Assembly: GCA_014904985.1 (NCBI GenBank)
Contig: MU128979.1
Location: forward strand, 186,813 to 250,812
From: Hydnum rufescens UP504
Lineage: Eukaryota; Basidiomycota; Agaricomycetes; Cantharellales; Hydnaceae
DNA length: 64,000 nucleotides
Direction: 5' to 3'
Both the position numbers and the translations under genes were made by a program. Within the stretch, counting starts at the first letter, position 1, and the number at the start of each line of letters is the position of its first letter. Positions 1,862 through 54,215 of this stretch are shown here, piece by piece. Under the pieces are notes generated by a model, which was not told the DNA's origin, made no database searches, and was given only the letters and a program-made list of their open reading frames with translations.

Positions 1862-1881
1862 CAGGCTGGTCTGCCACTTTT
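1862..1881 (+). repeat. left terminal inverted repeat of KDZ element
   Basis: It starts CAGGCTGGTCTGCCAC and pairs with the reverse complement of 17417-17436, which starts CACCTTGGTCTGCCAC. Seventeen of 20 positions match. Weaker similarity continues inward (shared GGTAGAAAAAT-like and AGGCCCA-like strings). Confidence 0.85.
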
Positions 1882-1941
1882 ATTATCAATGAAAGGTAGA
1901 AAAATGGGGCAGAATAGGTACCTATGGAGGCCCATAGATAG

Positions 1942-2064
1942 TTGGGCCCAACATCAGCCTAAAGATCAATAATTGTAGCAGCATGAGAAGCTTTTGGGTC
2001 CACTTGGGCCCAAATTTAGGTTCAAGTTCATCAACTCGGAAAATAGTGTGAGACTTGGGCCCAA
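1942..2064. repeat. left subterminal TTGGGCCCAA cluster
   Basis: The 10-bp palindrome TTGGGCCCAA occurs at 1942-1951, 2004-2013 and 2055-2064. The right end has one perfect copy (17337-17346) and two TTGAGCCCAA variants (17273-17282, 17293-17302). Symmetrical subterminal motifs are typical transposase-binding sites; that role is inferred. Confidence 0.6.
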
Positions 2065-2152
2065 CTTGGGTAGCTTACAAGGCACTTAGTTGAAGTTACT
2101 AGCATTTATCTTTACTATGTCGTACATGTTCATCCCCCCTACTCTAAGTCTA

Positions 2153-5100
2153 ATCCAAGAAGTCACTGGTCCCTATGACATGATCCAAGTCATTTACTAA
2201 GTCCGCATCATCAGTCTCTCCCGCTGGCTCCAATTCCATGTTATCTTCATCATCCGAGCTTGCATCACCATCATCAATACTAACCCGACTTCGATTCTCC
2301 TGCTGGCCCTGCCTACATGCCCAGGCACAATGGATTGGGGGTGGCTCCAAAATATCTTTCCAATCAGCCACACCAGCAGGGGCAGGAATCCCCAGTAAGT
2401 CCCATTCCCAAGTCTTCATCCAATCATAGAGAATGCGAAGTCGAAGAAGTGCAAAGAATGCAACTTCATCATCTTTAGGAATTGATAATTCCATGAGCGT
2501 AGATGAATTGGATTTAAACCTGTAGTACATACCTTTGCTGAACTCAAAGACTCGTCATACCGCCTCATAGTCATTCAGAAGCCATAGACGAAGGTTTGAG
2601 TGCTCCCGTTCACATCGGAAAAGCTCTTCCTGACAGCTCTTAACCTCCTGAGCAGCCCGTATCCCATCCTGAACCTCTGTATCTGAGAGCCATAGTGGAA
2701 CCTTCCCTCCCTCGAAGTCTGCCATGTCTGCATTTTGCCATATGTCCTGATCAACATCCAACTTGTATAATCCCTCTATCGACAGCTCCGGGGGAACATA
2801 GGCATCCCTCTTCACACCATTCTTTCCCCGTTCCCTTAGCATATCCTTCCGCAAGGCATTGTACTTGTTCAGTGTCACATCAATGCCTGGTGCTCGGTGC
2901 TTCACAGCCTTTTCGACATGCGCCTTGGTTTTCTGGTCTTCATTCCTATTAGTTTCTGAGATCCAGACTTTGACAATAACGAATGACATACCCATGGCCT
3001 GACTGGTGTGGGCACACTCTAAGTTGGCAAGCTCAAACTTTCGTGCATGAAGCTTCTTGAGCAACTGGTCTTGAAGAACTCGTATATTGAGTTGAAGGTT
3101 GATCCACTTGTCTTTCTTGAGACTAGCCAGTCGGTCTGCAGATGTGCGATCTTGAAGTCGAAGAGCCTTTATCTTCTTGGCAATGTTCTCTCTCTTCAAG
3201 GCGTGATATTGAGTCCTTGGCAATCCAAACCCTCTCCTTCCACTCCTTGTGCAAGCTTTGACCTCCGACACTATCATCCCTCACTAAGCCTCCTAACTCC
3301 TTCGAAAGCATCACCAAGATCCCCCGCTGCGATTCCAATGCCCCCTCAAGCGCTAATATTTGCTCAATCGCCCACGTCCCTTTTGTTCGCGATTGCCCTA
3401 CAAGACTTGACATTAGCATTATTCTCAATCCCACAATAAGGGAGCTACTTACGGTCAACCGATTTAGTTTGGAACTCACGTTGTTCCTTGAACTGGGCCA
3501 GCAGTCCATCTAAGTCCAACTGATGAGGACATGCATCCACAACTGCCAACGCCTCATTAAGACGCTCATTAGCTCGATGGACTTGATCTCGCAACCATTT
3601 GCCCATCCCAGCCTGCTTCATCTCATGGATGTACTCCACCTGATGATCCAAAATGAAAAGGCATCAGGTGATGCTGTCGTAAAGTTCATATATCAATGAC
3701 AATGAGATGTCTTGTTAAACCATGTAGCACACCCCAGTGACCCTGAGACCTGGGATTAACTTTCGGAGCTTCGCTCCAAAACCGTTCGCATCCCTCCCCA
3801 TCCGACAAGCCCCATAGCTCAGCCTTTCGAGGGTGGTACCAAAGCTGGCATGCCCACTGGTGACCATAAGCATGGAAGATAGAGACCGCAAACACAAGTC
3901 GATGGAAAAATTGGGGCATGAAATCCCATTTCTGGAGGGTGCGATGCAGTTGGCACCCGATGTTGTAGAGAATCCCAACTCTCCAATGGCCCGGCAATGA
4001 GTTCATCAAGGCAGATATGAGCACGAAAGCGTAGAACTGTTTTTCGCCTGCAGTTTTTAAATTTGCCAACAATAGAGGACGGTCGTGGTGACAAAGCATT
4101 GCCATGACACCCGTTGAGTCAAAAAAAGTCGAGGAGGCCTTGATCTGGTCACCGTCGGCCGCAATGAATGAATCTCGACATGCATCGTATGTCGCATTTG
4201 GCAAATTCATTCCAGGCTCAATCTCAGTAGCCCTGCCTCCGTCCATCAAGTCGGCTTCAGTTGTCTCCATCTCCTTGGCCTTTCGCTTATCCCCTGACTT
4301 TGGTCTGGAGGGGCGTACGGCCTCAACCCTTTCCTCCCACACCCGGATCTGCGATTCACTAAGGAAGATAGTCCGTGGCAAAGTGACTTCAGGGTCTAGA
4401 GACCTGGCCTGGCCTTTGTACTCCTGTCTTTGGTCTCTGTCCCGATTCCGCTTCAACTGGAAGTTTGCATCCAGACACACAATGAGATCCACACTCGTGT
4501 TCCCAGCATCCATATTAAGGCCACCAAAACAGAGGGGACAAGCACGTCGAAGGTAGGTGGCGGAACACTCTCATGGGTGGGAGACGGGACTACTGTTGGA
4601 GGTAGAGATGTCGCCGTGGGAAGTAGAGGAATCAGTAGAACTACTATCCTGCATCGCAGTAGGTCCCGTGGACGTCTGCGCATTTGGGTACTTGCGCATG
4701 TGGACAGGTGACTTTTCATCAAGCGCAATTGTCCTACAGGATCTTGTTCCCCTGATATCATCAGTGATCCTATCCATCTCTCCATCCACAAGCTGTATCA
4801 GGACTTGATACTGCGCCAGGGCAGCGGCAAACCATCGCCACAAGGAATCTCCAGTTGAAAATTCGTGACCATGATTCTTGAGGTATTTCGTGATGGTCGC
4901 TGCCCACGCTCTTTCATTTGGTGCAGAATGGACAAACAATATCGAGACTAACTCCAGCATATCCAAGCTCACAGCAAGCGTAGGATATACTGGAGCGCAT
5001 GGGAAATAGCCGATTTCCATGAGCTGCTCTGGTGCCGAACGGGAGTGGTTGCAAAGCAAGAGTTCAATATTGTAGAGGGCTATATAATCTACTGTAAGTC

Positions 5101-5478
5101 AAGGCATCATAACAGATGGGGGAAGCGATATGCATACCTTCGATCGAGACACACACAACCTTCAGAGTCCTGTGATGCATCATGCAGGAGCATACATTGA
5201 CAATCCCGCACTCCGGGAAACTTGGCAATCGGTGTGATGACGCCTGCTCACGCTTCCAACACATAAACAGTCTTATGAGAATCGGTAGAACCGTCTGGCT
5301 CCAGCGTGCGGCTTGTGCATGTTTCCGCCTGGCATGCCTCGACTCTTTTGTTACAACGTGGATATGCGGGTCGGGAGCCAGCCAAGGCTTGTAATCAAGA
5401 TTAAGCTGGTATTGTGCAACAAACTCTGACGGAGTAGCACTACGGATGTCAAAGGAAAGTGCTGTATCTGATTGAGAG
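2153..5478 (-). pseudogene. KDZ (Kyakuja-Dileera-Zisupton) transposase, CxC type, inactivated
   Basis: This would be the DDE-type transposase that excises and inserts the element. Reading right to left: an exon above 5138 with a basic segment and the CSC (CxC) motif near 5190; an intron at 5092-5137; then the APEQLMEIGYFPCAP and LAVSLDMLEL stretch; CPLCFGG; the first acidic site in IVCLDANFQLKR; HAYGHQWACQLWYHP; and GLSDGEGCERFW with the glutamate. The C-terminus (3509-2153) is coiled-coil-like and spread over three further exons, with an intron near 2530-2568. Two defects are visible: an in-frame TGA at 4571-4573 just before the CPLCFGG segment, and the normally conserved Asp of LYDIGCQ changed to Asn (codon 3962-3964). 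Both are C-to-T changes at former CpG sites. A small frame change in a GA run near 3190-3200 is also possible. The start codon and the small first exon upstream of 5430 are not resolved. Confidence 0.9.
5092..5137 (-). other. intron in KDZ transposase gene
   Basis: On the minus strand this 46-nt piece starts GTATGC and ends TTACAG. Removing it joins the CVSIE frame to VDYIALYNIELLLCNH, which restores the expected KDZ protein order. Confidence 0.8.
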
Positions 5479-5649
5479 GCTGAAGGTTCTCATGAGAACA
5501 CAAATCCGGAAGGGCCTTGTGCGACAACTTCAGCTTTTGGGTATTTTGCTCGACTTCGACTGCAAATATTTCTTCATGGGACCTGGCGATGTGATGGGCA
5601 ATTTCGACAAACCGCCGATTATTATACGAGTTTGGAGGATTCGGCAAGT

Positions 5650-5860
5650 ATGTCAGACAGGATACCGAACGTCGGTGCAAAGCGATGTGCAGCACTGAAC
5701 TTGACGATTGTTGTGTGAAGAAAAAACACGTCAGACAGGATACCGAGCATCGGTACAAAGCGATGCCCAGCACTGAACTCAACGGTTTTTTTTTTTCACA
5801 AAACACATGTCAGATAGGATACCTCAGCGTCGGATTGACCCGATGTCCAGCACTGACCTT
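5650..5860. repeat. 79-bp tandem repeat, three copies, inside KDZ element
   Basis: Copies begin near 5650, 5729 and 5807, each with GTCAGAYAGGATACC, then TCGG, CGATG and CCAGCACTGA. The second copy ends in a long T run. The array sits just upstream of the transposase gene on its coding strand, so it may be part of the promoter or a subterminal binding array. Confidence 0.75.
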
Positions 5861-6380
5861 GACAATATTTTGACACAGGGTATGAGACAAATACCGAACG
5901 CAAGCGAAAAACCTTTGATTCAGGGCAAGACAGATGGCGAACATCAGGAAAAACCGACATCCACCGCCTTAGGACTTACGGAGGCTCTAAAAAAAGTCAG
6001 ATTAGACTTGAGGCGTCAGACCAAACCGATCCGACAATATTTTGACACAGGGTATGAGACAAATACTGAGCGCAAGCGAAAAGCCTTCGATTCGGGGTAA
6101 GAAAGGCGCTGAATGTCAGGAAAAACTGACGTCCACCGCCTTAGGACTTACTGAGGCTCTAAAAAAAGTCAGATTAGACTTGAGGCAGTCAGACCAAACT
6201 GATCAGACAATATTTTGATGCAGGGTATGAGACAAATACTGAGCACAAGCGAAAAAGCCTTCGATTTGGGGTAAGAAAGGTGCCAAACGTCAGGAAAAAC
6301 CGATGTCCACCGCCTTAGGACTTACTGAGGCTCTAAAAAAAAGGCCGGAGTGGACTTGAGGCGTCAGAGTGAACCGATCT
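5861..6380. repeat. 172-bp tandem repeat, three copies, inside KDZ element
   Basis: GACAATATTTTGAYRCAGGG starts at 5861, 6033 and 6206, giving units of 172 and 173 bp. Every unit also holds CCACCGCCTTAGGACTTA followed by an A-rich run and GACTTGAGGC. The array lies between the divergent transposase gene (minus) and the GRF gene (plus), so it sits in their shared upstream region. Confidence 0.9.
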
Positions 6381-6553
6381 CTATTTCGAGAAAACTCCAG
6401 CAACCCACTATCATCATCTACCTTGTTAGGTGTCGATCCGACTCAACTTCTAGCATCGTTTACACCCACGAGCCTCGGTCAGCCCAGGTTGTCGACCCGC
6501 ATTGATGTCCAGTGCGTTTTCCGGCTGTCTTTCATCACGTTAATTTTGTGACA

Positions 6554-7276
6554 ATGCTACGCAAAGACTCCGTCCTCTATGTAGACAGGGAATTCATCTG
6601 CCATTGTGCAGAGAACCCCCTATGTCGTAAGTACAATCCGGAACTTCTTGATATAGCTGACTTATCGCTTCAATTGATTGTCATCGATAACCGACGACAA
6701 TTGGACTATATAGCCTTGGCGGTATGCTCTAGATCCTCTAATAACAACGGGAGATGGTTCTGGAGGTGTGAAAGGGCACACTTTGGACATGGGGGGTGCC
6801 GTTTTTGGTGTCAGTCTCAGCCAATTTTCGTTCTTCTAAGTACTCAAACTGATGATTCACAGTGTGGTCTGATCACTACAGTCCTCAACCCCCATCCAAT
6901 CCGGCCCACCCACCGGCGAGCCGCATGCAGCAGCCTTCATTGACAACTCAGATTCTCTCGTCTCCTTCCACTCAAGCGACCTTGTCTTGCTTCTCTCAAA
7001 CACCCTCATCTCTTCCCACCCAAGTGCGTTTCGACTTCTGTCATGGAGATGGCTGGACGAATCACATTGTTGGAACTGGAGCTTCATGATATGGAAAATG
7101 CGCTGTGTGCGATAATGAGAGAGAAGGAAGCAGGGGAGAAGAGATTGCAGGAAATGGAGGAGGCTCTTCACACAATGACCAAGGCAAAGGACGCATCGGA
7201 AGCCAAACTCAATCACTTCCTGGCCGACCTCTCCTTCCTAGTCCAGCGCATGAGTAATGTCGGCAATATTGAATGA
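6554..7276 (+). CDS. GRF-type zinc finger / coiled-coil protein, 174 aa, intact
   Basis: Four exons (6554-6626, 6714-6809, 6863-7023, 7082-7276) with three GT-AG introns give 525 nt, or 174 codons plus stop, with no disruption. The N-terminus carries a GRF zinc finger: CHCAENPLC, then NNNGRWFWRC and GGCRFW, matching the family pattern of spaced Cys residues with a GRxF core. A Pro/Ser/Thr-rich linker (about residues 60-110) follows, then a Glu/Lys-rich heptad region (about 110-165) likely to form a coiled coil. GRF fingers bind single-stranded DNA or nucleic acid in APE2, TOP3A and NEIL3-type proteins. A small free-standing GRF protein with a dimerising tail inside a DNA transposon could serve as an accessory DNA-binding factor; that role is inference. 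It is the only cargo gene without a premature stop. ATG 6554 is chosen because it directly precedes the finger. Confidence 0.75.
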
Positions 7277-7819
7277 ACTTGTAATTTTTGTCGCCGTCAT
7301 TCTCTTAATTGAAATATGTTACTGCATCGATATCAATAGTCAAATGTGTGTTATGTGTATTAATGGGATGCTTGAGAATGAAAATGATTAAGGGCTAGTA
7401 CAAAAAAAAAACACAATCTTCGAGGAAGTGCCCACACCAATGTGCCTCCATATATGGAGGTATATTATTGCACACGGTTGCTGGCAGCCCATCCATCTGC
7501 ACATCAGCTTGCGCCGTGCCCCCCTCCACGGCCACGTTGCCCATCTTTGCCATGTTCCCCGCCCCCCACTCCTGGCACCAGATAAATCGACCCCCATATT
7601 GTCTATGGTTGTAGGACTAACGCCGAGTTTTCCATTTTCGATTCAGCAATGTTTCTTGTGAGGGGCATCGGGGGACAGGGATTCCTCTGTTGCAGATCAT
7701 TTTGAGTTAGCCACATCCACCCAAACATACCACAGCTCTGGCATGGGTGGACGACTTGTGATTGAATGCGCAGGAGACCAGGGCTGGGGGAGATTTCCAA
7801 ACGAACGAATTAGCACTAT
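7277..7819. other. region between GRF gene and 142-aa gene
   Basis: It holds the 3' ends of the two convergent genes. A minus-strand open frame at 7603-7800 may be a further exon or read-through tail of the 7820-8374 gene, but I could not join it cleanly. Nothing else is supported. Confidence 0.3.
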
Positions 7820-8374
7820 TCATTTCTCTGCCATGGTGACGAAGTCGAATTCGGTTCTCTTCTTCAGCTTGTGGCCTGTCCACTGACTCCATATGTTGCT
7901 CTGGCCCAATTTTTCGAAGCCTAGATGACAGTATTAACACAGTAAGCACAGTAAATGGATATTACAGTAGTGGAAATACATACCTAGCCCCTGCAACTTG
8001 ACAGGAGACTTGGCCTGGCACCTCTGGACAAAGGTGACGTGGGTCACCGAGCCTATGGTGACCTCGTGTTTCCCAACGAAAGTTCAAAGGGCCCACTCGA
8101 AGTCTTCGTCGGCTACTAGAAGGACGATTGCCGAGCTCTGTGTTGAATCAAATCCATTTATTTGATGTGCAGTTTGGGAACGAGAAAATAGATTACATAC
8201 CTCATTTCGACCATAAATCTCAGTGACCTGGACTCGAGCTGCAGTGAGCCAGGCAATAAGATAAACAATCCCAAAATTAAACATATTTGTCGAATCATGC
8301 TTCCAACTGAGAGTCTTGAAGGCACCCTGCACACCAAGAATGCCAGAGGCCACCAGGTATTTGTCAGAAGACAT
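7820..8374 (-). pseudogene. unknown cargo protein, 142 aa, one internal stop
   Basis: Three exons (8374-8201, 8137-7984, 7920-7820) separated by two 63-nt introns (8138-8200 and 7921-7983, both GTATGT...AG) total 429 nt, an exact multiple of three, which supports the model. The protein begins MSSDKYLVASG, has a hydrophobic segment FGIVYLIAWLTAA that could be buried strand/helix or membrane-associated, and ends in a Lys-rich stretch. The frame is broken by TGA at 8084-8086 (between EWAL and TFVG), explained by one CGA to TGA change. I recognise no family. The neighbours are the GRF gene (convergent) and a 1.9-kb gene-free gap. Confidence 0.5.
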
Positions 8375-10248
8375 GGGATGTATGGGTTATCGAACTCCGA
8401 AACAATGTTTGTGGCTAGGCTTCCCTCCAGACAAAGACACCAACAGTGAGAGATAAACTCACTACTAGCGCTTCTAATCAATCCCGCTTAATGGCCTTAG
8501 GACTTTCGTTTCGATGATCGGAGACTGCCGGGATTCAGGTGCCAGTAGTAACAAGTCACACAGCCATCACATGGATGAAACCAACCTTCACTCAGTTGCT
8601 ATTACTGAGGAAAGGGACCCCGCGGCCAAATCCGGTAGGCATATCGTGACTCTGGATAGACATTCGTGTGGACATTCCATTAACAGAGACCCACACTAAG
8701 TAAGAAAATATCTCACAATTTCCCAAAAATCTCAAAAAATCCCAAACAATCCCCCAATCCCCCCAATGCGGGTACTGTAGACTGTACTTCCATACTTACC
8801 ATTTTCCAGACATTACTTCTTCCTTATTTTGTGCCCCCATTCAATTAGTTCCTCAATAGGACCCCAATCTTCTCCCATGCATATACTGTTCCATACCAGT
8901 ACCTTCTCAAAGATAGTGCCATTATGGAATGGACTAGGTGCCAGATTGTCACAGATTTTGAGACCCCCTGAACCAAGCCTCACTGGTAATTTTTATGTCC
9001 CATCTTCAACCCCCTGAACCTATATTCAAAATAGGACATTTGTTTGAGTCCCCTGGGACCATACAGTTTGCCTCATTTCCAAGGTACTGTCCTCATTTGA
9101 GTTCAAACCCAGTTCAAACTAGTTCACAAGGGAGACACAAATACAGTATGAGCAAGGGGCCCAATACAGTATCACCCTTCCAAGGCATCCTGATGTCTTT
9201 TTCTAAGATCCATCAGGGCTATCTGGCCTAGATGATTGAGATATTTGGATGCATCCTATCTCATGTCTCAATATATGCATGCCAACTGAACTTCAGCAAC
9301 ACTGCATGATAAAAGGCATTGATATTCACTCTGAATTACAGAAGCATCACACTTGTTTGCAACTACTTTGATGACATAGGAGGTTTCACAGTAGCAAAAC
9401 TGGAGCAAAACTAAGACAAAATGAAAAACACCACTGGAAACAGAACTGGTGAGTTTTGGAAAAACAGGTGCAAAACTGCCAATTTTGTCTTTCACCTCCA
9501 GAGGCTAAAAGAGAAAAATTCAAAAAACTAGGCAGGCACCATCATTTCCCCCTTCTCAAACTCTGCTCCAGTTACATATTGCATTTCAGCCAGGTTGCCA
9601 TAACCCTCCTTATGATGACAAAGCATGATTCACCCTCTGCTTGGGTTACTTGTATGCCAGTTCTGGGCACACAAAACTGAGTAGAAACCACAGATCACAA
9701 CTCAAGCAAAACTGAGTCCAGTTTTGCATCAGTTTTATGACAGTTTTTTCTACTATGAAGTACACTCATGCTAGCCATTAAATCTAAGAATTTAAGATGG
9801 AATTTTGGATGGAAGGAGTTACAGTTCATGGCAGTCGGGACTGACTTTGTCGGCAAGCACCGAGGGCAAGTAGCAGAACCTTTTGCACTTCGTTTGGCAA
9901 CAAGATTATGGTGACGAGTCAATCCACGGAAATTCGGTCTGACGGCCAGTCCGATGACGGGCGGTGCAATTCCTCTCAAGGATCGCGTCACCGTCTCACT
10001 GGAGATTGTCCTGCCGACTGTCCCAGCACCATAGTCCAAGCCATGACTTGGACTACCGATGGTGTACTTGTACCTGCCCCACTGCCGTCTGGACTGGCCG
10101 ACTGGGCTACTCTTGATAGAGGAGACCTTTGTCAGTGCGTTCTTTTTGCTATTCGTAAGCATTTACAGCTTAAAATGATTCAAACAAACAGTACTGACTT
10201 TAACCTCCAGGTGGGTCTCCAAGAAATCAGTCCCATTGTTATGATTGA
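8375..10248. other. non-coding gap in KDZ element, with a CG-poor patch
   Basis: No convincing gene. From about 8700 to 9790 the base use changes: CG nearly disappears and the motif CAAAACTG/CAGTTTT recurs (9400-9760), including a near-palindrome at about 9709-9728. CG-rich DNA resumes at about 9830. The patch could be an older or differently methylated insertion nested in the element. Similar 15-18 nt strings near both edges (around 8777 and 9760, inverted) hint at inverted ends, but I could not find a convincing target duplication. Upstream exons of the 10249 gene may lie at 9830-10248. Confidence 0.4.
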
Positions 10249-13200
10249 CATGAATGGTCACTAATCTATACAAACTCCTGCCGCCAATTCCAATTCCTTG
10301 GCCATTGGGACCACGGGAACACCACAAATGACTGCTACGTGCTTAATCAATATCCCCCACCTGCAGACGATATTGTTCATGAACGTCCACGCATTCATTC
10401 GACCGACTTCTGTCATGTTCCCGTCACATACAACAAAGCAGCCCCATATCGACCCTATATCCAACAACTTCCCACGGATCCCCTGCCATTCTCTTCAGAA
10501 TTTTTAGTGAAACATGGCAATGAGCTTGTCATTGAGGCATCTTATCTTCACAATGTTGAGGAGTTCTTCGAGGCCAACAGGAAACTCTACCTGGGGTGGA
10601 GGAAGGTGGTCAATTCGCTTGGTATCACCATGCCATGCCCTAGTATTCGTCTACCAAAGGGCATCTCCGAAATCCTATCCGATACTTGTCTACCTACCTC
10701 GTGTCTGAAATCCCACTCTTTTCACAACCCTGTTAGCAACGTTCTACAGTGTGCATACAAATGGGGCGGGTTGGCCCATCTATTGGCTCGTCGATGTATC
10801 CGGCATATTGCCTGCACATTTGGAGCATCTCCTCCTCACCTGGGCGTTGACGAGAGCCTCATTGGGGCAATTTTTGCATATCCGATAACATCCCAGGAAG
10901 ACGCAGAGTGGTTAGAGGAATTGCTTGGAGATGGGGTCCCTGTCTTTGGTGTAGTTGAGGGCGCATCTCAGTTATGCGCTTCAGCAATCCCTGAGTTGCC
11001 CATTCCCCCTATACTCGAGCCGCCAGTGATAACCTTGCCAATAGTGCGGCATCTTGTGTATGTGGAACAATGCCCAACCCATGTCAAGCATCCAGATCCC
11101 TGGTTAGTCCAACCCAAAAGAGAATCTACCAGAGTTGGAGAGTCTTTGGATGGCCAGCTGCTAAGGGCACTCTTCCCTGACCCCACTTCGACGAACCTAG
11201 TCCCTGGGATGCTCACGAAAATCAGAAGAATCCTTGGAAATAGGCAATTTCCCCCAAGTGCCACTGAAGTCAAAGACCTAAGCCAAGACTATGGTTTGGA
11301 ATCTTTCCCTGGCATGGATGGGTTGTCTCTTCGAGATGATGTTGCTTCAGAGCCCAGGTCTTCAGTGTCGGAACCGGGCGACAAGTTTCGGGTTGAGGCT
11401 GAGGGGCCTCACGATTTTCTGGATGCTGAGGACTATGAGAGTGATGGTACAGATCGTGGAGGGTGGCCAGAGATGATGGACTTGGCTTAGCATTCCGGTG
11501 AATCTGACAGTGCATTCGAGAAACGACAAGCCAAGAAGCAAAAAGAGGAGGAAGAGGCAAATAAATCCATCCAGGAGGCAAGAGAATTACTCAATAGGGC
11601 GTACAATGGCGACAAAGAAGCAGAGCGCGGGGTTGTCGAGCATATCAAGGCTGAGGCTGGCAGGAAGCCAGGCAAGTGGTCAGTTGGCAACAAAGCCCCC
11701 CCCACAACTGCAGGCGTATTATATCTTCGAGACCATTGGACGAATAAGAAGAGCATCCTCTCCAATGAAAAGAAGCGCAATAAGAGACTTCGCAGGCAAT
11801 TCGAAGAGATCAAGGGAGATGATGCGCAGAAGAGAGATGTGCGCAATTCTTCTCCTGGTCCCAATTCTGGGAGTCAAGTACGGCTACAGTCCGCCCTTTC
11901 TCCCAGCAGTTGTCTTCCCCGCCATCCTCGCTCTCACTCTCGCTCTCCCCCCTTGGTCATTCATCCTCCTCGTCGCTTTCACTCCCATTCTGCCTCTCGC
12001 TCTCGCCCTGCGGCCATTCGTCCTCCTCGCCATCGCTCTCCCTCTCATTCCCCTTCTCGCTCTCGCCCCCGGCCGCTCGTTCTCGCCATGGCTCTCGCTC
12101 CCGTTCTCCCTCTCACTCTCGCCCTGTTGCCGGTCGTTCTCCTCACCGTCGCTCTCACTCCCATTCCCCTTCCCACTCTCGTCCTTTGGCTATTCGTTCT
12201 CACCATCGATCTGACTCCCAGGCCTCCAATTCTCATGTTTCGCCTGCTCCTCCCCGCCGTCGTTCTCGTTCCCACTCTCCCACTCATTCTCGTCCTTCAT
12301 CTGCTCATGATGCTCATCATCACCCTCCCTTATCTTCCAGAAATCGATCTACAAGCCCCCCTCCCTGTTGTCAATCTCCTCCGGTTGCACAAGAAGTTAT
12401 TGCCCAAAGAGGAGCCATTGGACAGAAAGAGACTCCCCCAGGAGTCCCTCCGGATCGATTTTCCCGCCGTCTGTCTCCTTGTCCATCTCTCAATTCTCGT
12501 TCTTTCACTGCCACAACATCCTCAGCTACTGTCTCGAGAGTCGGCAGGCCAATACCAACAGGCCCATGAGCATTTCTGCCCCCAAATCCCAGACTGATAC
12601 TGACGGGCCTGCAAACTGATCGACATGTACCAGTTGCAGTGGGTGTATGGTATGTGGTGGAGTGCAAGCCGGTATCAAAAGACAGTGCATTGATTTGGCT
12701 GAATGAGTTTGAGGGTCAAGGACTGTTGGGGGTTCGGTGCACGAGGCGTAAACAGGCAGCCGATTCTCCATTCCAAGCATGTCTCTACTTCAAAAACTTG
12801 TCTCTGCAAGACAATGTCCTTCGCTGTGTGACAAAGGAGATGAATGCTCAAAACCTTCAGTTCGTGAATGCAGCAACGTTGGATACGGTTCCCACCCCCT
12901 ACACTGCCAAGGTGGATTTGTTGTACATTGAGGAGGCATATGCACATGCCCGTAATGAGCAAGAGCTTGCATCCTTACTCTCTTGTGCCCCACCACCTGT
13001 CCTCACACAAGAGGACTTCAAGGCTGAGATTCTTGATTACGTATTGCACCCTCCATGGCTTCTGACGAATCGTGCTCAATTTCCTCTGGCAGACCTTGAG
13101 AGCCGGAGGAGAAAGATGCACGTCTTCGACTTCACCACACCATGGCTGACAGAGAAGATCAGTGTCGGCACTCCACCACTTGGGCTGATTCAGTTTGCAT

Positions 13201-13502
13201 TACTGATTCGCAGCAATATTCGGCGTGGCTTCAAAAAAGTGTTTATTGTATCAGTTTGGCCCTCCAACGGTCCAATGAATGATTGGATACGGCAGATTTC
13301 TAGGTGGGCAGAAGCAGACAGACACAATTTCCAGGAGCATTTGGAGATTCGCGAGTGTTTCGGTTTCACCCTTCATGGATCTTGGAGAGTGGTGTCGGAG
13401 AAAGGTCTTAAAGAACCTCATTTCTTGAAGGACCCTCATGAAGATGAGCCTGGAATGAAGAATACACGTATCCCGCTGTCGTCATTCAACATTCCATCTT
13501 AG
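10249..13502 (+). pseudogene. large unknown cargo gene with SR-rich repeat region, decayed
   Basis: One long plus-strand frame can be followed for about 1,080 codons: an N-terminal globular part (10249-11480; motifs such as GWRKVVNSLG, CIRHIACTFG, GDGVPVFGV), a charged Lys/Glu region (11491-11830), an Arg/Ser-rich repeat tract (about 11930-12400), and a C-terminal globular part (12573-13502; KKVFIVSVWPSNGPMNDW, GFTLHGSWRVV). It is interrupted by TAG at 11488-11490, a frame change at the C run 12066-12070, and TGA at 12567-12569. Reading frames continue cleanly on each side of these points. The TGA fits CGA to TGA; the TAG fits CAG to TAG. No start codon is identified; earlier exons may lie upstream. 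The architecture reminds me of a large uncharacterised gene family in Agaricomycete genomes, but I cannot name it. SR tracts usually mediate RNA-processing contacts; function here is unknown. Confidence 0.65.
11925..12310 (+). repeat. about 57-60-bp minisatellite encoding Ser/Arg-His repeats
   Basis: Six to seven imperfect units share TCGCTCTCACTCYC followed by a CCATTCGTYCTC-like segment. In the coding frame they give SRSRPxxIRPPRHRSxSHSP-type repeats. The frame switches at a C5 run (12066-12070), so upstream and downstream units are read in different frames. Confidence 0.75.
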
Positions 13503-14158
13503 ATCCGTCATTCTTATGTTGATTTGCTTCACAAGTGTATTTCCCTTTGTAGTGTATGAATGACACTGACTCCGGCATTTGCCGTTCCTTCTTGCGGTGG
13601 CACTGAACTTGGTGGTATCGGAGAACCTGCTCTTGTAGCATTTGCCTGGCAGCACATGGTAACTTGAAGAGTCTCTGATATACCCGGTATACACGAGGCA
13701 TATTCGTCTTTCCCCACCTCTGTACGTGTTTTGTGTGTCTTCATTGTTCATACACCTCTTGCGTGGAGGCCTGTGCAGCCTCCGCGTGTGTTGGCAATTC
13801 TAACGATCTTTCTATTTCCTTCCTCATTTTTTGTTAGATGTATGTTTTTTTCTCTTGTGCAGGAGGACTTGTGCCGGTCTCTGCCCACCCTGTCATAGGT
13901 AGAGGCCGTGCACCCTCCCTGCGCTCCCTTGGCAGTTACGACACCAACTTTAACTTTTTTTGGAATACACAGTGCCTCGTCACTGGGAACTATCGAGGTT
14001 TCGATATCTCACTTGTCTGAGCGTTCGATATCTCTGGCCACTTGCCCTGTGACGTGACCCGACTTATTCCAACTCATCGCATAAGAAGGGAAGGCTACAG
14101 GGGATCTGAAGAGCACTCCCAATAGTTCTTTTCTCATTCTCTAGCCAGATCCCTTATT
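13503..14158. other. intergenic spacer between the two large cargo genes
   Basis: T-rich in its middle part (about 13800-13860) with no supported gene. It presumably holds the terminator of the 10249 gene and the promoter of the 14159 gene; no clear TATA box was found. Confidence 0.3.
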
Positions 14159-17155
14159 ATGCCCGCGACTTGTTCTAATAAGGCTGAAGTGCCCTCAGCA
14201 CTCTCAGCAAAGACCCGTTCTTCTAAGGCCAAGTCAACGAGTGCCTCTTCGGGGCCCAAATCATGAAATGCTTCATCATCCAAGTCCAAGGTATCAAACA
14301 CGTCATCATCCAAGTCTAAGGTGGCAAGCACCCGATCATCCCAGTCCAAATCAGTAACCGCCCCTTCGTCTAAATCTCCTTGAGTCCCGCAGGGAGCTTT
14401 GGCTTCGACTTCTATGGCATCCACTCCCAATAGAGGTCACATCTTGTTGGTTGAGCTACCTCCTCGAGTCCTTCATACTCAGTCGCTGAGTAGGCCACTA
14501 CCTTCGCTCGCTCCCCCTTCTATGTCTGGAGTCCAACCTGCTCGGAATGTCCCCTTGCTCCCTGCGATCCATTCACCCGTCACATCTGCCAGGGCAGATC
14601 ACGCCCTTACTTCACGTGATGTAGTAGCATTGCTTGATCATGCCCATACCCTCATCAAACAGCTCCCTTCCAGTGTGCCTGAGCGGGATGCTAATGAATG
14701 TGGTGTGACCTGTCTGTGGGATGCCAATCACCCAGAGGATATCCCGGCTGCATTTGGGGGCGGTGGGGCAGATTGCGATGAGGACTGGGAAGAACTAGAT
14801 CCAGTACTGAATCGCGTTCTCCATGTGGACATACCAATGAATGCAGTAGTCGACGGAATCAGACACGGCTCCAGTGGTACACTAGGGATTGTAGAAGGCC
14901 TTGCATTCTTCGTTGAGAAACGCAGTCTGAATCCTGTCTATTTTGGGACAAAAATGGAATGTCTTGTAGAAGCTTTGGAACTACGAATAAAGTGAGAGAT
15001 GATCCTAAACCCACACATACATCTAACTTGGTATCTGATGCCCTTATCACCTTTTGCACCAGGTCAGAGACTCGCATGAATCCCACTCAAGACCTACGTT
15101 CCCCACCGCCTCTAAACTCTCATATGGACTCGCTTCCAGATTGGCAGCATGAGCCTGCTGCCAATGACAGGCAGCAGACATCGTTATCGCTAAAACCCTC
15201 CACTGAGGAATATAACCAGCATCCACTGGATCCTCGTGAAGGATCGGATAGCGATACTCAACCTTCACCTGGGCATTTTTCTCGACGAGTTCTTCGTTTG
15301 CGTGCCTTGGATGAAGAAGATGAAGACGAAGAAGATATTGTGAGGCATTCTCGGTGGGGAAAGCAAGTTTCTTTTGCCCGCAACGACAATGAGGATGATG
15401 AGGATGACATATCCAAAGTGGATGAGAGCCTTTTCGTGGATGGAAATGTTGCGAATGTGCAGTTTACCAAACGCAAACTCCGCAATGAGGAAATCAAGGA
15501 GGTGATGGACATGTTTCACAACTTCATGGAGGACAAGCTCAAACCATGTGCGACTTGCCTCGGTCGATCTGTCTCGCAATTGATGAAAATTGGTAACGGG
15601 GAAATGTCAACACCAGAGTGCCGACGTGGGGGTAATGCATGGAATGCATTTCTAAAAAATCTCAAAGGTTCATATTGTTTATCCTTCTATGTATAATTAT
15701 ATCCTTACACAGTAGTACGTTGTAGACAAAAACAAGTATGTTTCACATGATCATGCAAGGAAGGAGTACGAACTCCTAAAATCCAACATGGGCGGGTCCG
15801 ACTCCGAAATGTGGACAGCAGAGGTGGAGCAGCTCAGGTCAGAGCACAGTGGGAAGAAAGCTGAGGCGGGAAAGAAGCTAGGGCAGTCAGGAGGGGATGT
15901 TGTGAAGTTGATGGAATCGGCGCAACGACGATGGAATGCAGATGGAAAGGCACTTTTGAACTCTGGTATCCACACATTCTACATCATGATATCTGACTGT
16001 GCAGCATCCGCGGCTGCCCATGGTCGAAATACTGCCACCATGAACTCACCTCAAATGGAGTCGTGGTACAAATCTAACTTCGACCCAACCGAACACCTTG
16101 CAAACGTGTATAAATACATTCTCACTGAGCAGATGCGCCAAAATGAAGTCGATGCTTTTGAAGAAAGGTGTTCACAAAACCGATGATTGGCAGAGACCCA
16201 TGACATGCATAAGACTAAGGCAGCCTGCGCGCAAAGGATGCGGAAGCTCTTGGATCGTTACATGCTGCTGAAGGTGAAGACGACGAAGTGGATGGAGATC
16301 CTGAGGCTGTTGCGGATTAACAGAGTCCGGATGGAGGGTCTTCCAACCGTGGAAGAATTCCCGCTGTTAGGAAGCTGGATCTCAGACAAGTACCGCACAT
16401 TGCATTGGAGCAAGATGTACGAGGCCTTCAATCGTTCTGCTGGGTGCCAGATCCGGATTGAAGAACTTCCCGAATCCACGTCTGACGTTGATGAGGCCCT
16501 GTTGCCCATCATGATTGATCATCGTGGGCGAGTTCAGCACACCATTGGCAGTGTGGATAAGGCAATCGATTCAAAAGACTGGTCCATTGGTGCGGCGGTA
16601 AAGGATCCCACTCCAGAAGGTGGACAAGAGGCCAAAGAATCTGTAGGGAAGAGGAAGAGGCCTGGTGTAGAGGGAGGTGTAGGCGTGATTGGGAGCAGGG
16701 ATGCTGAGGGACTTCATGAGGGTGGGGCAGGTGATGTTGAAGATGTTGGGCAGAGATGGAAGAAAAAGAAGAATGGCCCAAAATCATCTGCGACAATCCC
16801 TGACAATGCCGACAACTTGCCAAGCCCGGTTCCACTCAACTTCCCACAGGATCCAGGATTGAGCACCAAAGGACCTTCCAATCACACAGCACCAATCGGA
16901 TATGGTTCGGAACTATCACCACCAATTGATACTCTCTCTATGCATTCAATGTCTTTGACCCCTTTCTCATTCGACCTCAGTGGCGGACCACTAGCAGGTT
17001 TGGAGGCCATGGGCCATGACCTTACACAGCAGCCCAGTGATTTTTTCCAGCAACCTGGCGTGGCCCCACTCCCTCCTCTCCACTCGAACTTCGTGGGCCA
17101 ATTCCCTCCTGGATTGCAAGACCCAAATGCAGGAGGATTTCTTCAACTATGGTGA
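14159..17155 (+). pseudogene. large unknown cargo gene, transcription-factor-like composition, decayed
   Basis: ATG 14159 opens a frame that continues to 17155 with introns at 14992-15062 (71 nt) and 15668-15726 (59 nt). Order: Ser/Lys-rich N-terminus with a three-fold SSKSK-type repeat of about 39 bp (14265-14360), a Pro/Ser region, an acidic run (DEEDEDEED, about 15310), a conserved-looking helical block (EIKEVMDMFHNFMEDKLKP to NAWNAFLKNLK), a second block (HTFYIMISDCAASAAAHGR), basic patches KRKRPG and RWKKKKNG that resemble nuclear localisation signals, and a Pro/Gln/Leu-rich tail. TGA stops interrupt it at 14264-14266, 14381-14383 and 16184-16186, all explained by CGA to TGA, and one base appears lost near 15779 (KEYELL/KSNM join). 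The NAWNAFLKNLK block resembles an HMG-box-like start but is too weak to assign. Family unknown to me. Confidence 0.6.
14992..15062 (+). other. intron 1 of the 14159 cargo gene
   Basis: It starts GTGAGA and ends TGCACCAG. Removing it joins ELRIK to SETRMNPTQ in frame. Confidence 0.8.
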
Positions 17156-17436
17156 CTTGTAGCTATCATTGATTTGTCGTAGTATATAATACATATAATA
17201 TGGATTTGTCAACAGTAGTCCTGGCTGATCTGGGCGAGTATGATGAGGATGATGCTGCCAAGTCCCTAAGGATTGAGCCCAAATAAACCCAAGTTGAGCC
17301 CAAAAGAGATATGGAACCGGGGATCAAAGAGCCTGGTTGGGCCCAATTGGGTTCTTATGGGCTTGGGCCTTCTTAGGTAGAAAAAATGCCTCATTTTTCA
17401 GCCTAAGGTAGGTGAAAAAAGTGGCAGACCAAGGTG
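17156..17436. repeat. right subterminal region and terminal inverted repeat of KDZ element
   Basis: After the last cargo stop codon comes a short AT-rich stretch, then the subterminal motif (17273-17346) and the right inverted repeat (17417-17436, ending GTGGCAGACCAAGGTG). The neighbouring duplication CCAACTTT is at 17437-17444. Confidence 0.8.
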
Positions 17437-18053
17437 CCAACTTTATGCATTCAGCTGCTTCTGTCTTAGCTGGTGCATTGGCTGGGGTGGTCTGGCAGTG
17501 CCAAACCACTCTGGAACTGTTTCAACTACCCCACACCATGTTTGTGGATGCAGTACTCCATCACTCTTTGCAGTTTCCCATAACTGATGGAGGCAAAAAG
17601 ATGCTTCATGTGGCAAGCTCTACCATGGTTGAATGGCTGAAGTAGATTCCAGAGCTCTCTGATTCCAGTGCTGTTGACCTCGGATTGGCTTCCCTCCCTG
17701 GGAGTACTGATCCAACAGTCTCTGGTTGGAAACCAGAGGCCAAGGCATCAACTCTCTTCCATGTGGCAGTCACAGTGATGTTTGTCATTGACTCAATCTT
17801 TTTCCAACTTGCCAGCCTGTCTCCATCAAGCACTCTTCCTTCACTCCACCCTCTTTACCATACACCTGAGGTTGCCTCATCCCTTCCTCATTACCTTCTG
17901 CAGTTATGTTCCTGGCTGCTGCACTGGGAGGATCATATTATCCAGGAGAGCGATGTTAAGCAAGAGCACCCTGGCTCTATTGCCCTTGATGTTTCATCTC
18001 TTCCTGTAGCTGATGTGCTGCTCCAACTTTGTACCCATAAAGTCAGTTGGTGA
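17437..18053 (+). pseudogene. 3' part of gene interrupted by the KDZ element
   Basis: It continues the frame of 1670-1861 after the insertion. It reads MHSAASVLAGALAGVVWQ onward, passes a single TAG at 17643-17645 (CAG to TAG would explain it) and continues to 18053. The sequence is CG-poor with many TG/CA. No family recognised. Further exons of the same gene probably lie at 18190-22047. Confidence 0.5.
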
Positions 18054-18189: not shown

Positions 18190-21100
18190 GATTTTAGTGT
18201 AGCAACCCCAGAGATGAAGCTAGAAGCTCATTGTTCTGTGGCCCTGGCCTCTGCTGTCAGTCCCATCATTGTTCTCATCCCTGGAATCATGCTATCCAAA
18301 TGTTGAGAATATTCCTGCACAGAGTATCACATGGTGAGTTTCCCATCCTCTGTTGTCACCACCTGTGTTCACTTTTTTGTTTGCAGTTCTGGCAGTTTGG
18401 TCAGTCCCCTTGGGTTGCTCATGGTAATGACACACATACATCCTTTGTGGAATCTTCACTCTGGAAAGCATTGATTCCTTTCATGGTGGGAATTCATATC
18501 TCCAAACCCCCTCTGATGGCTGAAACTAGTACCTCTCCCTCAACCCCTCACCATGTTGACCTCCATTGCTTTCACCAAGAAGTTCTGAACATACTGCAGG
18601 ACATTCCTCACCAAGCTGGTTCTGATTCCCAATCTGTGCCTGCCACACCCATGCCCACAGGGACCAAAGGTCCCTGGCATAAAATACTCCCTCCTGTACC
18701 AGCTGTGCAGGAATTGCTTCATTATCATGAAGGTCAGCACCCCCTTTTCCTTTTCCTGATCTTCTGTGTCTGACTCGAATTCACCTCACCTGCCATGCTA
18801 GAAAATTCACAACTTCACAAATGACTTGCTCAACTTGAGCAAGTTATGAGGCAGCAAAAAGTTCTTATCTCTCTTCAAGCATCTCCCTCTTTGACCTGTC
18901 CCAATGTTCCTTCCATGAATGATGAGGGCACAGCTCTGCCTATTCACTTACTGCCAGTACCTGACACCCTTTATTCAAGAGAAGGTTTATCTTGTATGGG
19001 GGTCCCTCCCAAGGAACAAGTGCCTTCTCCTGGATCTCCAGATCCACCCTCCCTGAATACAGTGGGGTTCTCCATTGCTGCTTCTGGATCTGGAGATGTT
19101 GGTCCTCCTCACATTGTGGCTGATGAACATCAGTCCCCTGCTCCAACCTTGCTCCCACTGCCCAACCCACATGCTCTCTCTCCTCATTCTGATCAACCTA
19201 CATCAATGGATGTGGATTCTCTCCCTGATGCTGTCCCCCCAGATGCTGGCATGGATATCAATCAAGACATCACTCCAGATCCTGTCAGCATCCATACTCC
19301 ATGCTCTCATTTATCTAGTCCCTTGTCCTTGCCTCCCACCTTATTGCCCCCACCAACTTGTGCCTGTTTCCATATCTTGCCTGAATTTGAGCAAGGCTGT
19401 GGGCATGAGAATGACCATACTGAACAGCTTGATGCTGATCATATTGCCTACCTTGCTCAACTCTTTCAGGCCCTCGATCAGTATCTCCCCCCGAGTGATG
19501 ACACCTATTTTCCTACATCCCCCCTTGCCTGGAGTTATGAGATATTGGGTGTATTGGAAGATGAGGATGAGGGGATTGATGGCAACATAAAATGCTGGTT
19601 CATGTCCAGCTATCAGGATCAGCATGCATTGGCACTGCATGATGTCTCTCTTGTTTGCCAGGAGGAAGCTGCCACCACAGCTTCCAAATATGGCCTGTCT
19701 TGGGCACATTCTCTTGACATGTCTGTCTTCTGGGCATGTGGGGAAAGATCTCAGGAGCTTATCAAGGCCCTTTGATCTGCCTTTATCATGCTGAGGTCTG
19801 AGAGCTGCAGCATCATGCAAATAGCTTTGTTTCGGACAGCTTTTCTGAACTGTGCCAAGAACACATTCATCCATAAAGGTCTAGAGGTTGCATCCATCCC
19901 TCTATTTGCATGTGTACCCTGTTTCTCTCTCAGGTGCCTCAATTTCATCATTGTTCTATCACTGAGCTTCTCCCACAATGAAGAAACTTGTGGCTGATAC
20001 CAGTCTCCCTTCCCTTCCCTTTTCCCCTCATCAGCCTCTTGTCTCAGTGAAATTGATGTCCACCCATGTGCCATCTTTTGGATCCAAGCAAAAACACAAA
20101 GGCTCTGCCTCTGCCAGTTCTTCTAGGGCATTGGAGAAGGTCCAGACCAAGACAGATGACCTTGATGATGGGGCTGGCCTCAATACAGCTGAGGACATTC
20201 TATGCCAATCTGGTGTTGAGGTATGGCTGTCATTGCTCTTGCTCACTGCATGTCTGCTTTAGTAAGGATTCTCTCATTCAGAATGACACTGATGTTCATT
20301 ACCATGAGCCTCTTTCTGACTTTACTCCCAATGATGGGGACACAGTGAGTGACTGAATGTTGCAATAATTACACCCTATTTTCACCCTGAATTTTGACAT
20401 TCTTAGCTTCTGCATGAAGAATTTACATGGCCTGTCTGGCACCTCAATTCCACCACTGAGAGTGTGACTCTTGAGTACTTCATGTTCCATATGCCCATCC
20501 TGAAGAGTGAGAAGGTGAGATCATCTTTTTGTCTTGGTCTCTTGCATTTCTCCCACATCACTCAAATATTTCTTGGCCTCTCACCTCCTTTCAGGATAAA
20601 CATGATGAAGATTCTGACTTGCCTGACAACAAGAAATGTCCATCACTCTGGCATGACTGGAAGGAGCTATTTGTGTTGATGGAGACCTGTCGAAAAGAAT
20701 GCCTCTCAGCCACACTTTCTTTGTGTGCTTCCTCCTATGCTCCAGATGCTCTGGATAAGCCAGCTGCAGTTGAAGCATTTAGGGCACCAGGCCTTACTCT
20801 ACCTCATGCCTCCCTCTGCTGTCTGATTTGATCCCTTCCTTGGTTCCTGATACTCTTCTGCAGAAACCTGAGAGCCTGGTCCCTGTCCATGGTGAGTACT
20901 GATGGTGCAGTCTTCTCCAATCTGCTCAGCACCATTTTCAGTGCTGAATGAGTGGGTCTGCAACAAATCTGCTGTCATCAAGATGGCTACACTCCAGGAA
21001 GTGATCAACAAGAGTCATCTGCCGCTGCATCATCCCTTGAATGTCTTGTCAATTCCTCTGACAAGTCTATTGTACACCTCAATGCTGGAAAAGTATGCTC

Positions 21101-52879: not shown

Positions 52880-54215
52880 CAGTGAATAAAGAGGAGATGA
52901 GCCCAATATGAAGCACCTGTATCTCTCACATGGACTTTGGGGTACATATGACATTGCATAGAGGCTTTTTTCAGGGCATGAAAGTTTCTTATGATCCATG
53001 TCACTGTTTTGAAACACTCTGCCACTCTAGGAAGGTCACCAGGACTACGTAAAGCTAAAATTTCCTTATTTGGGTAGGTGTATTTGCTGTCCTGCAGGTT
53101 TGGATTGATATGGGCATGCAGGGTATTCAGTACTGAGATACATATGTGGTCTGCCTCCAATTTGATAATTTTTCCATAATTTTCTGAGCATAAGAAATTT
53201 GTGTCATGATATTGATAGTAGAGGCAACTTCACTGTATTTTGAAACCAGCCTGGTCTGGCAGAATAATTCCCAGATTTTGTTTTCTCAGAAAATCATGAA
53301 AAAATCATGAAACTGTAGGCAGGGTATATATATATCCCAGCATCAAATATCCTGCATACCTGTAGTGATCCAAAGCCACAGGATAGCAGATATACTGAGC
53401 CAAATAAGGAAATTTCAGTCCTCAGTAGTCCTGGTCGACCCAGATGTCCTTTAGTACAAGAGGGTCGCCCTTCTCCTTTCCACCTTCATTGACTTTGATG
53501 CCTTCAAAAATATGAGTCAGTCAACCTTGAAGTGGCTCCACACCAAAGGACGAGACAATCTTTCTGGTGTGGAACCTCCATGGTTTCTTGCTGTCATGGG
53601 GGTGAACCATAATGATGAATTGTATCAGATCCCCTGGTGCATGCATTGCAGTAGGATTGAAGCCTAGGGATCTCCTGTGAGCAAATGCAAAGGCAGCAAA
53701 CAACTCAACAAGCGGGTTGGGTTCCTAAATACAGCTCTGGGCATAAAATTACTTGGAAATACAAGCATATGTACTGAAATGAAGTTAAATGGCTCACTGA
53801 CAACAACAGAAGACCAACAACAGAGCCATACACTGGTTGTGGCATTTTCAATTGTCAACCCATATGTTGCTCAGCAACACAGATCGTCTCTCATGATGTG
53901 CTGCATACTCCAGATACACTTCAGCACATCCTAGGGTGAATCATCAGTATCCCATAGCATCTCAGAATCCCAGAAGAATACTTGCATCATCCAATTCATC
54001 CATTCTGTCATCCTCCCATTTGTATTCACACAAGAGAGCCATGTCCACCCACAATATAACCATTTCATTGAACTTGTCCTTGAGCAACAGATAGCTGTTG
54101 GGCATGGTGGTGTTGGACCTGGCAGTTGATGTCAGTGCCTTTATGTTTGGGCAGTTGATACCAGGCAAGGGGGAAGTCTCCCAGTCAGTTGGACAACTGC
54201 AGTCCAGGAGCACCA
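52880..54215 (-). pseudogene. FunK1-type fungal protein kinase pseudogene
   Basis: On the minus strand the pieces appear in the order known for the FunK1 family: an acidic lead segment (VDMALLCEYKWEDDRMDEL); the TIENATTSVWLCCWSSVVVSEPFNFIS block; RRSLGFNPTA; HTRKIVSSFGVEPLQG; LVLKDIWVDQD, corresponding to the kinase N-lobe entry; then after a degenerate gap a stretch resembling the YxIVxKE...SLxxVFxxL region (52880-53160). Frames shift between blocks and stops occur, for example after QDY. The catalytic HRD and DFG motifs were not found. These kinases are greatly expanded in Agaricomycetes and some are signalling kinases, but this copy is dead. Confidence 0.6.

Follow-up and report, generated by a model that had tools for sequence, protein, structure and literature searches.

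A multi-gene KDZ transposon of Hydnum rufescens and its recurrent pair of companion genes

The stretch of DNA analysed here, 64,000 nucleotides from contig MU128979.1 of Hydnum rufescens UP504 (positions 186,813 to 250,812; hereafter the window), contains at 1862-17436 a segment of 15,575 bp in which a KDZ (Kyakuja-Dileera-Zisupton) transposase is accompanied by several other genes. The locus raises the question of whether this segment moves as one unit and, if so, whether the genes that travel with the transposase are passengers or are of use to the element. The first part has a firm answer, since the segment was confirmed to be a single KDZ insertion, mobile as one unit. As to the second, we consider it on balance probable that this is a large multi-gene KDZ DNA transposon, predicted to move by cut-and-paste, in which the two largest companion genes, D and E, form a long-conserved pair likely to encode transposition helpers. 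The evidence comes from the window and from searches of the genome (63.2 Mb in 539 contigs).

Ends and copies of the element

The element starts with the terminal inverted repeat CAGGCTGGTCTGCCACTTTT (1862-1881, plus strand), the start being the same in 8/8 close copies of the left end, and finishes with the reverse complement of CACCTTGGTCTGCCACTTTT (17417-17436, minus strand), which agrees with the left end at 17 of 20 positions; the inverted arms reach 68 nt at 72% identity. It is bordered by the target-site duplication CCAACTTT (1854-1861 and 17437-17444), with a match of 8/8. The palindrome TTGGGCCCAA is present in exact form four times in the element, each time within about 200 bp of an end: three copies lie on the left side in 1942-2064 (at 1942, 2004 and 2055) and one on the right side at 17337-17346, and none was found in 17437-64000. 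When up to one mismatch was allowed, the element contained six such sites, all of them subterminal, while 200 mononucleotide shuffles of the element gave 0.5 on average and never more than 3. The inverted ends, the perfect duplication and the subterminal palindromes described in a first-pass annotation of the window were therefore all borne out by the sequence check. The same annotation had called the segment a composite transposon, that is, two elements around a cargo. This term is wrong because the segment is one unit with its own ends; no two complete smaller elements are located at the ends, and among the inverted repeats listed the sole link between the ends is made by short arms, 68 nt at most. 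Starship-type giant cargo elements carry a tyrosine-recombinase captain, and the transposase found in the window element is of the KDZ type.

Further copies of the family were identified by searching the genome with the two ends, the best 40 of 48 left-end and 40 of 51 right-end candidates being scored. Eight near-identical left ends were found, as well as eight right ends at 97-100% identity plus weaker ones, and both ends are present in four copies, located on contigs C71 (the window copy), C130, C50 and C142. The copy at C130:95580-111833, of 16,254 bp, has the same ends, the full gene order and its own duplication CTCTCATC (8/8), and is about 97% identical to the window element, with the gene order kept over 15.6 kb. 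Insertions sharing ends and gene order had been proposed as a check of the unit, and this one, which sits in a different perfect 8-bp duplication, substantiates the earlier suggestion that these genes move together as a mobile module. Of the other both-ended copies, the one on C50 is flanked by a 7-bp duplication and interrupted by an assembly gap, and the one on C142, whose duplication agrees at 6/8, has lost an internal part and gained an insertion between the members of a 634-bp direct repeat pair that resembles long terminal repeats. The contrary arrangement that had been considered, the ends enclosing the transposase alone, was not seen in any of the four both-ended copies, two of which are gapped or deleted inside. 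Where a copy has a single end, no partner end was found, and several of these copies meet contig ends, gaps or rearrangements.

It could also be the case that nested insertions between two unrelated end-like repeats have by chance produced the semblance of a unit, as the repeat-rich region and the insertions or rearrangements in other copies (C142 and C130:139000-158500) might suggest. Chance nesting does not explain why several copies have perfect duplications and share both ends and their internal order, and it is refuted by the second full-length copy on C130 with its own duplication; we regard it as extremely improbable.

The insertion interrupts an open frame, and the flanks (1664-1861 and 17437-17640), joined with one copy of the duplication, read through 131 codons. 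A direct empty site for the window insertion was not found, since the joined-flank frame matches only distant paralogs (31%) on C240 and C38; both paralogs span the insertion site. The C130 copy (C130:94580-112833) contains 674 bp that are absent from the window, with the junction near window position 5111 and relatives in C50 and C142, which is possibly a small inserted element. Elsewhere on the same contig, C130:139000-158546 holds a rearranged copy with repeated D segments, and a further KDZ match (157889-158683) lies just past its left end.

Genes of the element and their sister lineage

The KDZ transposase gene extends in several pieces over 2150-5489 on the minus strand, with the cysteine-cluster part on its 5' side. 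Its KDZ domain, PF18758, at 3686-4570 (E 5.7e-52; 177 bits against a Pfam cut-off of 26.6), leaves the earlier identification of the transposase standing, and in two joined transposase pieces the cysteine cluster scored 26.3 bits for CxC1 (cut-off 26.9) and 25.0 for CxC2 (cut-off 27). Three copies of a direct repeat of about 172 bp (5861-6379) separate this gene from the next one. The four further genes that had been announced are indeed present, namely a GRF-like zinc-finger and coiled-coil gene, F, D and E. The GRF-like gene (6554-7276, plus strand, exon borders placed by eye) has a broken frame in the window copy and is carried by five other loci of the window family; while the gene itself was correctly called, Pfam reports no GRF domain for it, and its label is owed to a motif that we take to be that of GRF fingers. 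Gene F (8084-8386, minus strand), modelled as one frame of 100 amino acids, encodes a small conserved protein and is probably the 142-residue unknown of the first-pass annotation.

Gene D (9908-13502, plus strand) encodes an N-terminal domain common to its relatives P0001 and P0002, a middle part rich in serine-arginine (RS/SR) dipeptides, and a conserved C-terminal domain akin to genes at many distant loci. Its start and first exon (9908 to about 10,140) were placed by eye from P0001. The C130 copy of D is an open frame of 1099 codons, relative to which the window copy shows a frame change near 12070. Gene E (14159-17155, plus strand) consists of three exons (14159-14991, 15063-15667 and 15726-17155), and at both introns 8/8 copies share the same donor and acceptor sites. 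It has a basic stretch in its C-terminal third and, in the window copy, in-frame stops at 14264, 14381 and 16184. Its relatives P0003-P0012 come from a shared-word protein search with a capped number of candidates, which does not by itself show E to be confined to Hydnum; among them P0010, a protein of Hydnum rufescens UP504, has 782 of its 866 12-mers in common with the translation of contig C86. Because stops or frame changes disrupt D, E and the GRF-like gene here, the window copy is presumably inactive on its own.

Left ends about 82% alike to those of the window over 90 bp define a sister lineage, in which pairing of ends by position rendered eight large elements (17.6-31.7 kb) and six short ones (0.9-1.5 kb). 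Junctions were read in three of the large elements (C26, C5 and C42), and two of these have perfect 8-bp duplications, GGTGAGTC in the 24.5-kb element on C26 and GCCAAACA in the 24.8-kb element on C5. The sister element on C86 encodes a KDZ transposase together with F, D, E and a GRF-like protein, whose gene has the opposite orientation to that in the window; the right end of this element was not found within the 2 kb fetched past E. Amino-acid identity between the C86 and window companions is 38-63% where measured, including 49% for F and 59% over 22 residues for the GRF-like protein. The sister lineage thus contains relatives of all four companion genes, and the earlier view of a cargo set particular to the window element is not supported.

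Differences at the first, second and third codon positions between the window family and C86 amount to 0.43/0.36/0.56 in D, 0.38/0.28/0.63 in exon 1 of E, 0.47/0.39/0.61 in exon 2, 0.31/0.15/0.48 at the start of exon 3, 0.37/0.24/0.62 in F, and 0.27/0.20/0.48 and 0.37/0.34/0.58 in two pieces of the KDZ gene. In each of D, E, F and KDZ, differences are most frequent at third positions and least frequent at second ones, the pattern expected of genes maintained by selection. These comparisons bear on the possibility that the four companion genes are of host origin and were taken up as passive cargo, a view favoured by the lack of a recognised transposition domain in D or E. However, the same genes occur in a diverged sister lineage, D and E are found in a third one as well, and their codon-position pattern resembles that of the transposase. 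Passive cargo appears to us quite improbable, and it was dropped in view of the recurrence of D with E in this genome and of their KDZ-linked arrangement, described below.

Short stretches of 0.9-1.5 kb with related ends are located on C239, C225, C101, C33, C1 (383341-384678) and C166, and are probably non-autonomous elements. No duplication was found at the 1464-bp element on C33, the only short one whose ends were read. An end pair at C71:168394-204248 was discarded, as it joins two different elements.

Recurrence of the D-E pair and its possible role

A third lineage is represented on contig C1, where a KDZ gene with stretches of 42% and 48% identity is followed, beyond an assembly gap, by a D-like and an E-like gene in the order and orientation of the window. 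The D-like gene corresponds to the C-terminal part of D, with 27% identity over 311 residues (86.7 bits). The scan revealed no clean termini at this locus, which has the assembly gap inside it. Repeats of the GGGGCCCA type (L051-L053; C1:39163-39403 and 53321-53448) lie near the C1 element on either side, many of them to its left and three GGGCCC to its right, and are akin to the subterminal GGGCCC palindromes of the window.

Genome-wide, 67 of 119 E rows qualified as distant E-like loci, with at most 39% identity and outside the window's own and the sister family. A D-like gene lies 1.3-2.9 kb upstream on the same strand in 35 of these 67 loci, and within 5 kb in another arrangement in two; uniform chance would place D upstream in about 0.5% (count based on 126 of 141 D-like rows, 15 fragments of listed loci being omitted). 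Eleven of the 35 pairs have a listed KDZ match within 20 kb, and nine of the eleven are arranged as in the window; a shortened KDZ list was used for this count, and the 150-row list names the same 11 pairs. A similar count for 108 of the 126 D-like loci (18 of the own or sister family omitted; 150 of 154 KDZ rows) rendered 34 with a listed KDZ match within 20 kb. In 23 of those 34 the arrangement of the window recurs, with the nearest KDZ gene upstream and on the opposite strand, compared with a random expectation of 25% (binomial p 2e-7, copies of one family not being independent). Pairing of ends and genes was tabulated for 42 of 47 D rows, 30 of 119 E rows, 20 of 21 F rows and 40 left and 40 right ends, together with 23 hand-picked KDZ rows, so that the KDZ column is incomplete. 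Among the 29 merged D loci in this table, F is divergent within 3.5 kb upstream in 12 and E lies within 25 kb downstream in 19; a right end is found 1.4-2.6 kb from the E match in 20/30 E rows.

The cargo that had seemed new thus consists in part of D-like and E-like genes that stand together at many further loci, part of them KDZ-linked. Judged from sequence comparison, the companion genes seem to belong to the regular gene set of KDZ elements in Hydnum rufescens, and we read the D-E pair as an old element-encoded module. Because the pair recurs at dozens of loci, about a third of them near KDZ, D and E are likely to be helpers rather than accidental cargo, and their conservation, fixed order and codon-position pattern argue for a use to the element. 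In the mechanism that we propose, the KDZ transposase would recognise CAGGCTGGTC-type ends, excise the element and insert it at an 8-bp staggered cut, the duplications being the visible outcome. D, E or both may bind the subterminal TTGGGCCCAA sites, or the RNA of the element, and so aid transposase assembly. The SR-rich D and the basic stretch of E would fit nucleic-acid binding, for which the subterminal palindromes would be natural sites. Accessory proteins assist the transposase in CACTA and MuDR elements, which offers an analogy for D and E. CACTA, MuDR and Harbinger elements all combine an element-encoded accessory protein and subterminal repeats with a transposase, one unrelated to KDZ, and D and E have no Pfam match tying them to those partner proteins.

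Several observations weigh against this reading. No D-like gene was found within 5 kb upstream on the same strand at 32/67 distant E-like loci, and no listed KDZ match within 20 kb at 24/35 D-E pairs or at 74/108 D-like loci. Distant E-like loci show a mild enrichment near listed KDZ genes (18/67 within 20 kb, against a uniform expectation of 9.5% and 3/29 in a Plavaka control), and four of the 29 D loci (C122, C432, C484 and C78) have no F, E, end or KDZ match among the rows used. The scored candidates were 150 of 584 for KDZ, 42 of 457 for D, 115 of 310 for E and 140 of 253 for D-like genes. As only 150 of the 584 KDZ candidates were scored, a missing KDZ gene near a locus tells us little, and for the same reason the nearness of E-like genes to KDZ is weak evidence. 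Copies of one family are, moreover, not independent events. The codon-position comparison has no formal null, its contrast is weakest in D, exon 2 of E and the second KDZ piece, and the remainder of exon 3 of E has no match in C86. The sister element on C42, although it has paired ends, shows no duplication at its junctions. Finally, a Pfam scan of D, E and their relatives recognised no domain, and structure models reached a mean pLDDT (predicted local distance difference test) of 36.7 for a relative of D (P0002 heading 3 rows) and 44.2 for a relative of E (P0014 heading 23 rows), too low for use in a fold search. It is because of the lack of a Pfam domain and the quality of these models that we infer a helper role instead of asserting it. 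In its low-confidence model the E relative is mostly helical, and a sequence search of the PDB gave nothing meaningful for D or E.

TET/JBP, CpG hypermutation and known KDZ elements

What is mainly known of KDZ elements is their transposase and their association with TET/JBP genes. As the first-pass annotation had stated, no TET/JBP match is found inside the window element. The genome as a whole rendered a single match (C5:56001), below the cut-off and outside the element, compared with at least 154 KDZ matches, and TET/JBP was accordingly dropped as a cargo candidate. The KDZ-TET/JBP link, described for other mushrooms in passages of PMC12730594, therefore appears to be absent or nearly so in the genome of Hydnum rufescens.

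With its KDZ transposase, inverted ends and 8-bp duplications, the window element resembles the KDZ elements of basidiomycetes; it differs from them in carrying D, E, F and the GRF-like gene and no TET/JBP. Its ends and 8-bp duplication are those of the KDZ superfamily, while other copies show 7 bp (C50), 6/8 (C142) or none (C42). Passages of PMC12730594 attribute 8-bp duplications to Zisupton and a Dileera family, and a passage of PMC12810828 to Cryptococcus KDZ1. According to the latter source, Cryptococcus KDZ1-3 measure about 9-11 kb; the window element has 15.6 kb, and the paired ends of the sister lineage enclose 17.6-31.7 kb. Kyakuja elements, as characterised in a passage of PMC12730594, have 7-bp duplications, CA..TG ends and no terminal inverted repeats; the elements described here have CA..TG ends too, but 8-bp duplications in four elements (7 bp in C50) and a 17/20 terminal inverted repeat. 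The TET-plus Kyakuja/Zisupton elements of mushrooms, in passages of the same source, likewise carry an extra gene besides the transposase, although the window element has no TET/JBP. No companion pair resembling D-E was found in the KDZ and Hydnum transposon literature as represented mostly by titles and abstract openings, with passages of PMC12810828 and PMC7641404 included.

CpG hypermutation is eroding the copies that were compared. The window and C130 copies differ from each other at 387/802 CpG sites, as opposed to 26/13,956 other columns. The direct repeat pair inside the C142 copy differs at 11/40 CpG sites and 0/553 other columns, and the third-lineage E copy L044 differs from L046 at 89/147 CpG sites and 3/2556 others, and from L045 at 22/148 and 2/2555, respectively. 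No bias of the CpG mutations towards TCG was seen, nor did a strand-run test reveal tracts like those of repeat-induced point mutation. Judged by its sites outside CpG the insertion is young, while mutation proceeds at its CpG sites. The observed/expected ratio of CpG is 0.61 in the element and 0.07 over 17437-64000.

The order Cantharellales, to which Hydnum belongs, also includes Rhizoctonia solani. CpG-biased hypermutation has been reported for Rhizoctonia solani AG8 and Tricholoma matsutake, according to passages of PMC4014442 and PMC6980582, while a passage of PMC12730594 states that hypermutation was not detected in Agaricomycotina. In view of those reports, the pattern in Hydnum is a strong example and not the first. 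The copies of the element document CpG-specific hypermutation of a mushroom in clean form, a subject on which the published statements, as far as these passages go, are in conflict.

The hypermutation also bears on the main alternative to a helper role, namely that D and E, with the GRF-like protein, form an anti-silencing module against CpG methylation or the mutation resulting from it, replacing TET/JBP. The many KDZ matches against one TET/JBP match below the cut-off would agree with such a module, and copies so strongly mutated at CpG imply that an escape would pay; the same heavy mutation of the compared copies means, on the other hand, that protection, if any, fails, and Pfam recognises no enzyme domain in D or E. 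We therefore regard this module as unlikely. Returning to D and E as transposition helpers, a broader proposal, which we advance only tentatively, is that KDZ elements may be multi-subunit machines in which the ancient D-E pair acts as the standing partner at TTGGGCCCAA and might stand in for TET/JBP against CpG methylation or mutation. A KDZ-rich genome with no TET/JBP above the cut-off and with different conserved companions makes the further requirements of KDZ elements a testable question.

As for the remainder of the window, no Rfam match at gathering score was obtained anywhere in it, and the portion to the right of the element (17437-64000) is nearly devoid of long frames, a single open frame of at least 260 codons being located at 18825-19775.

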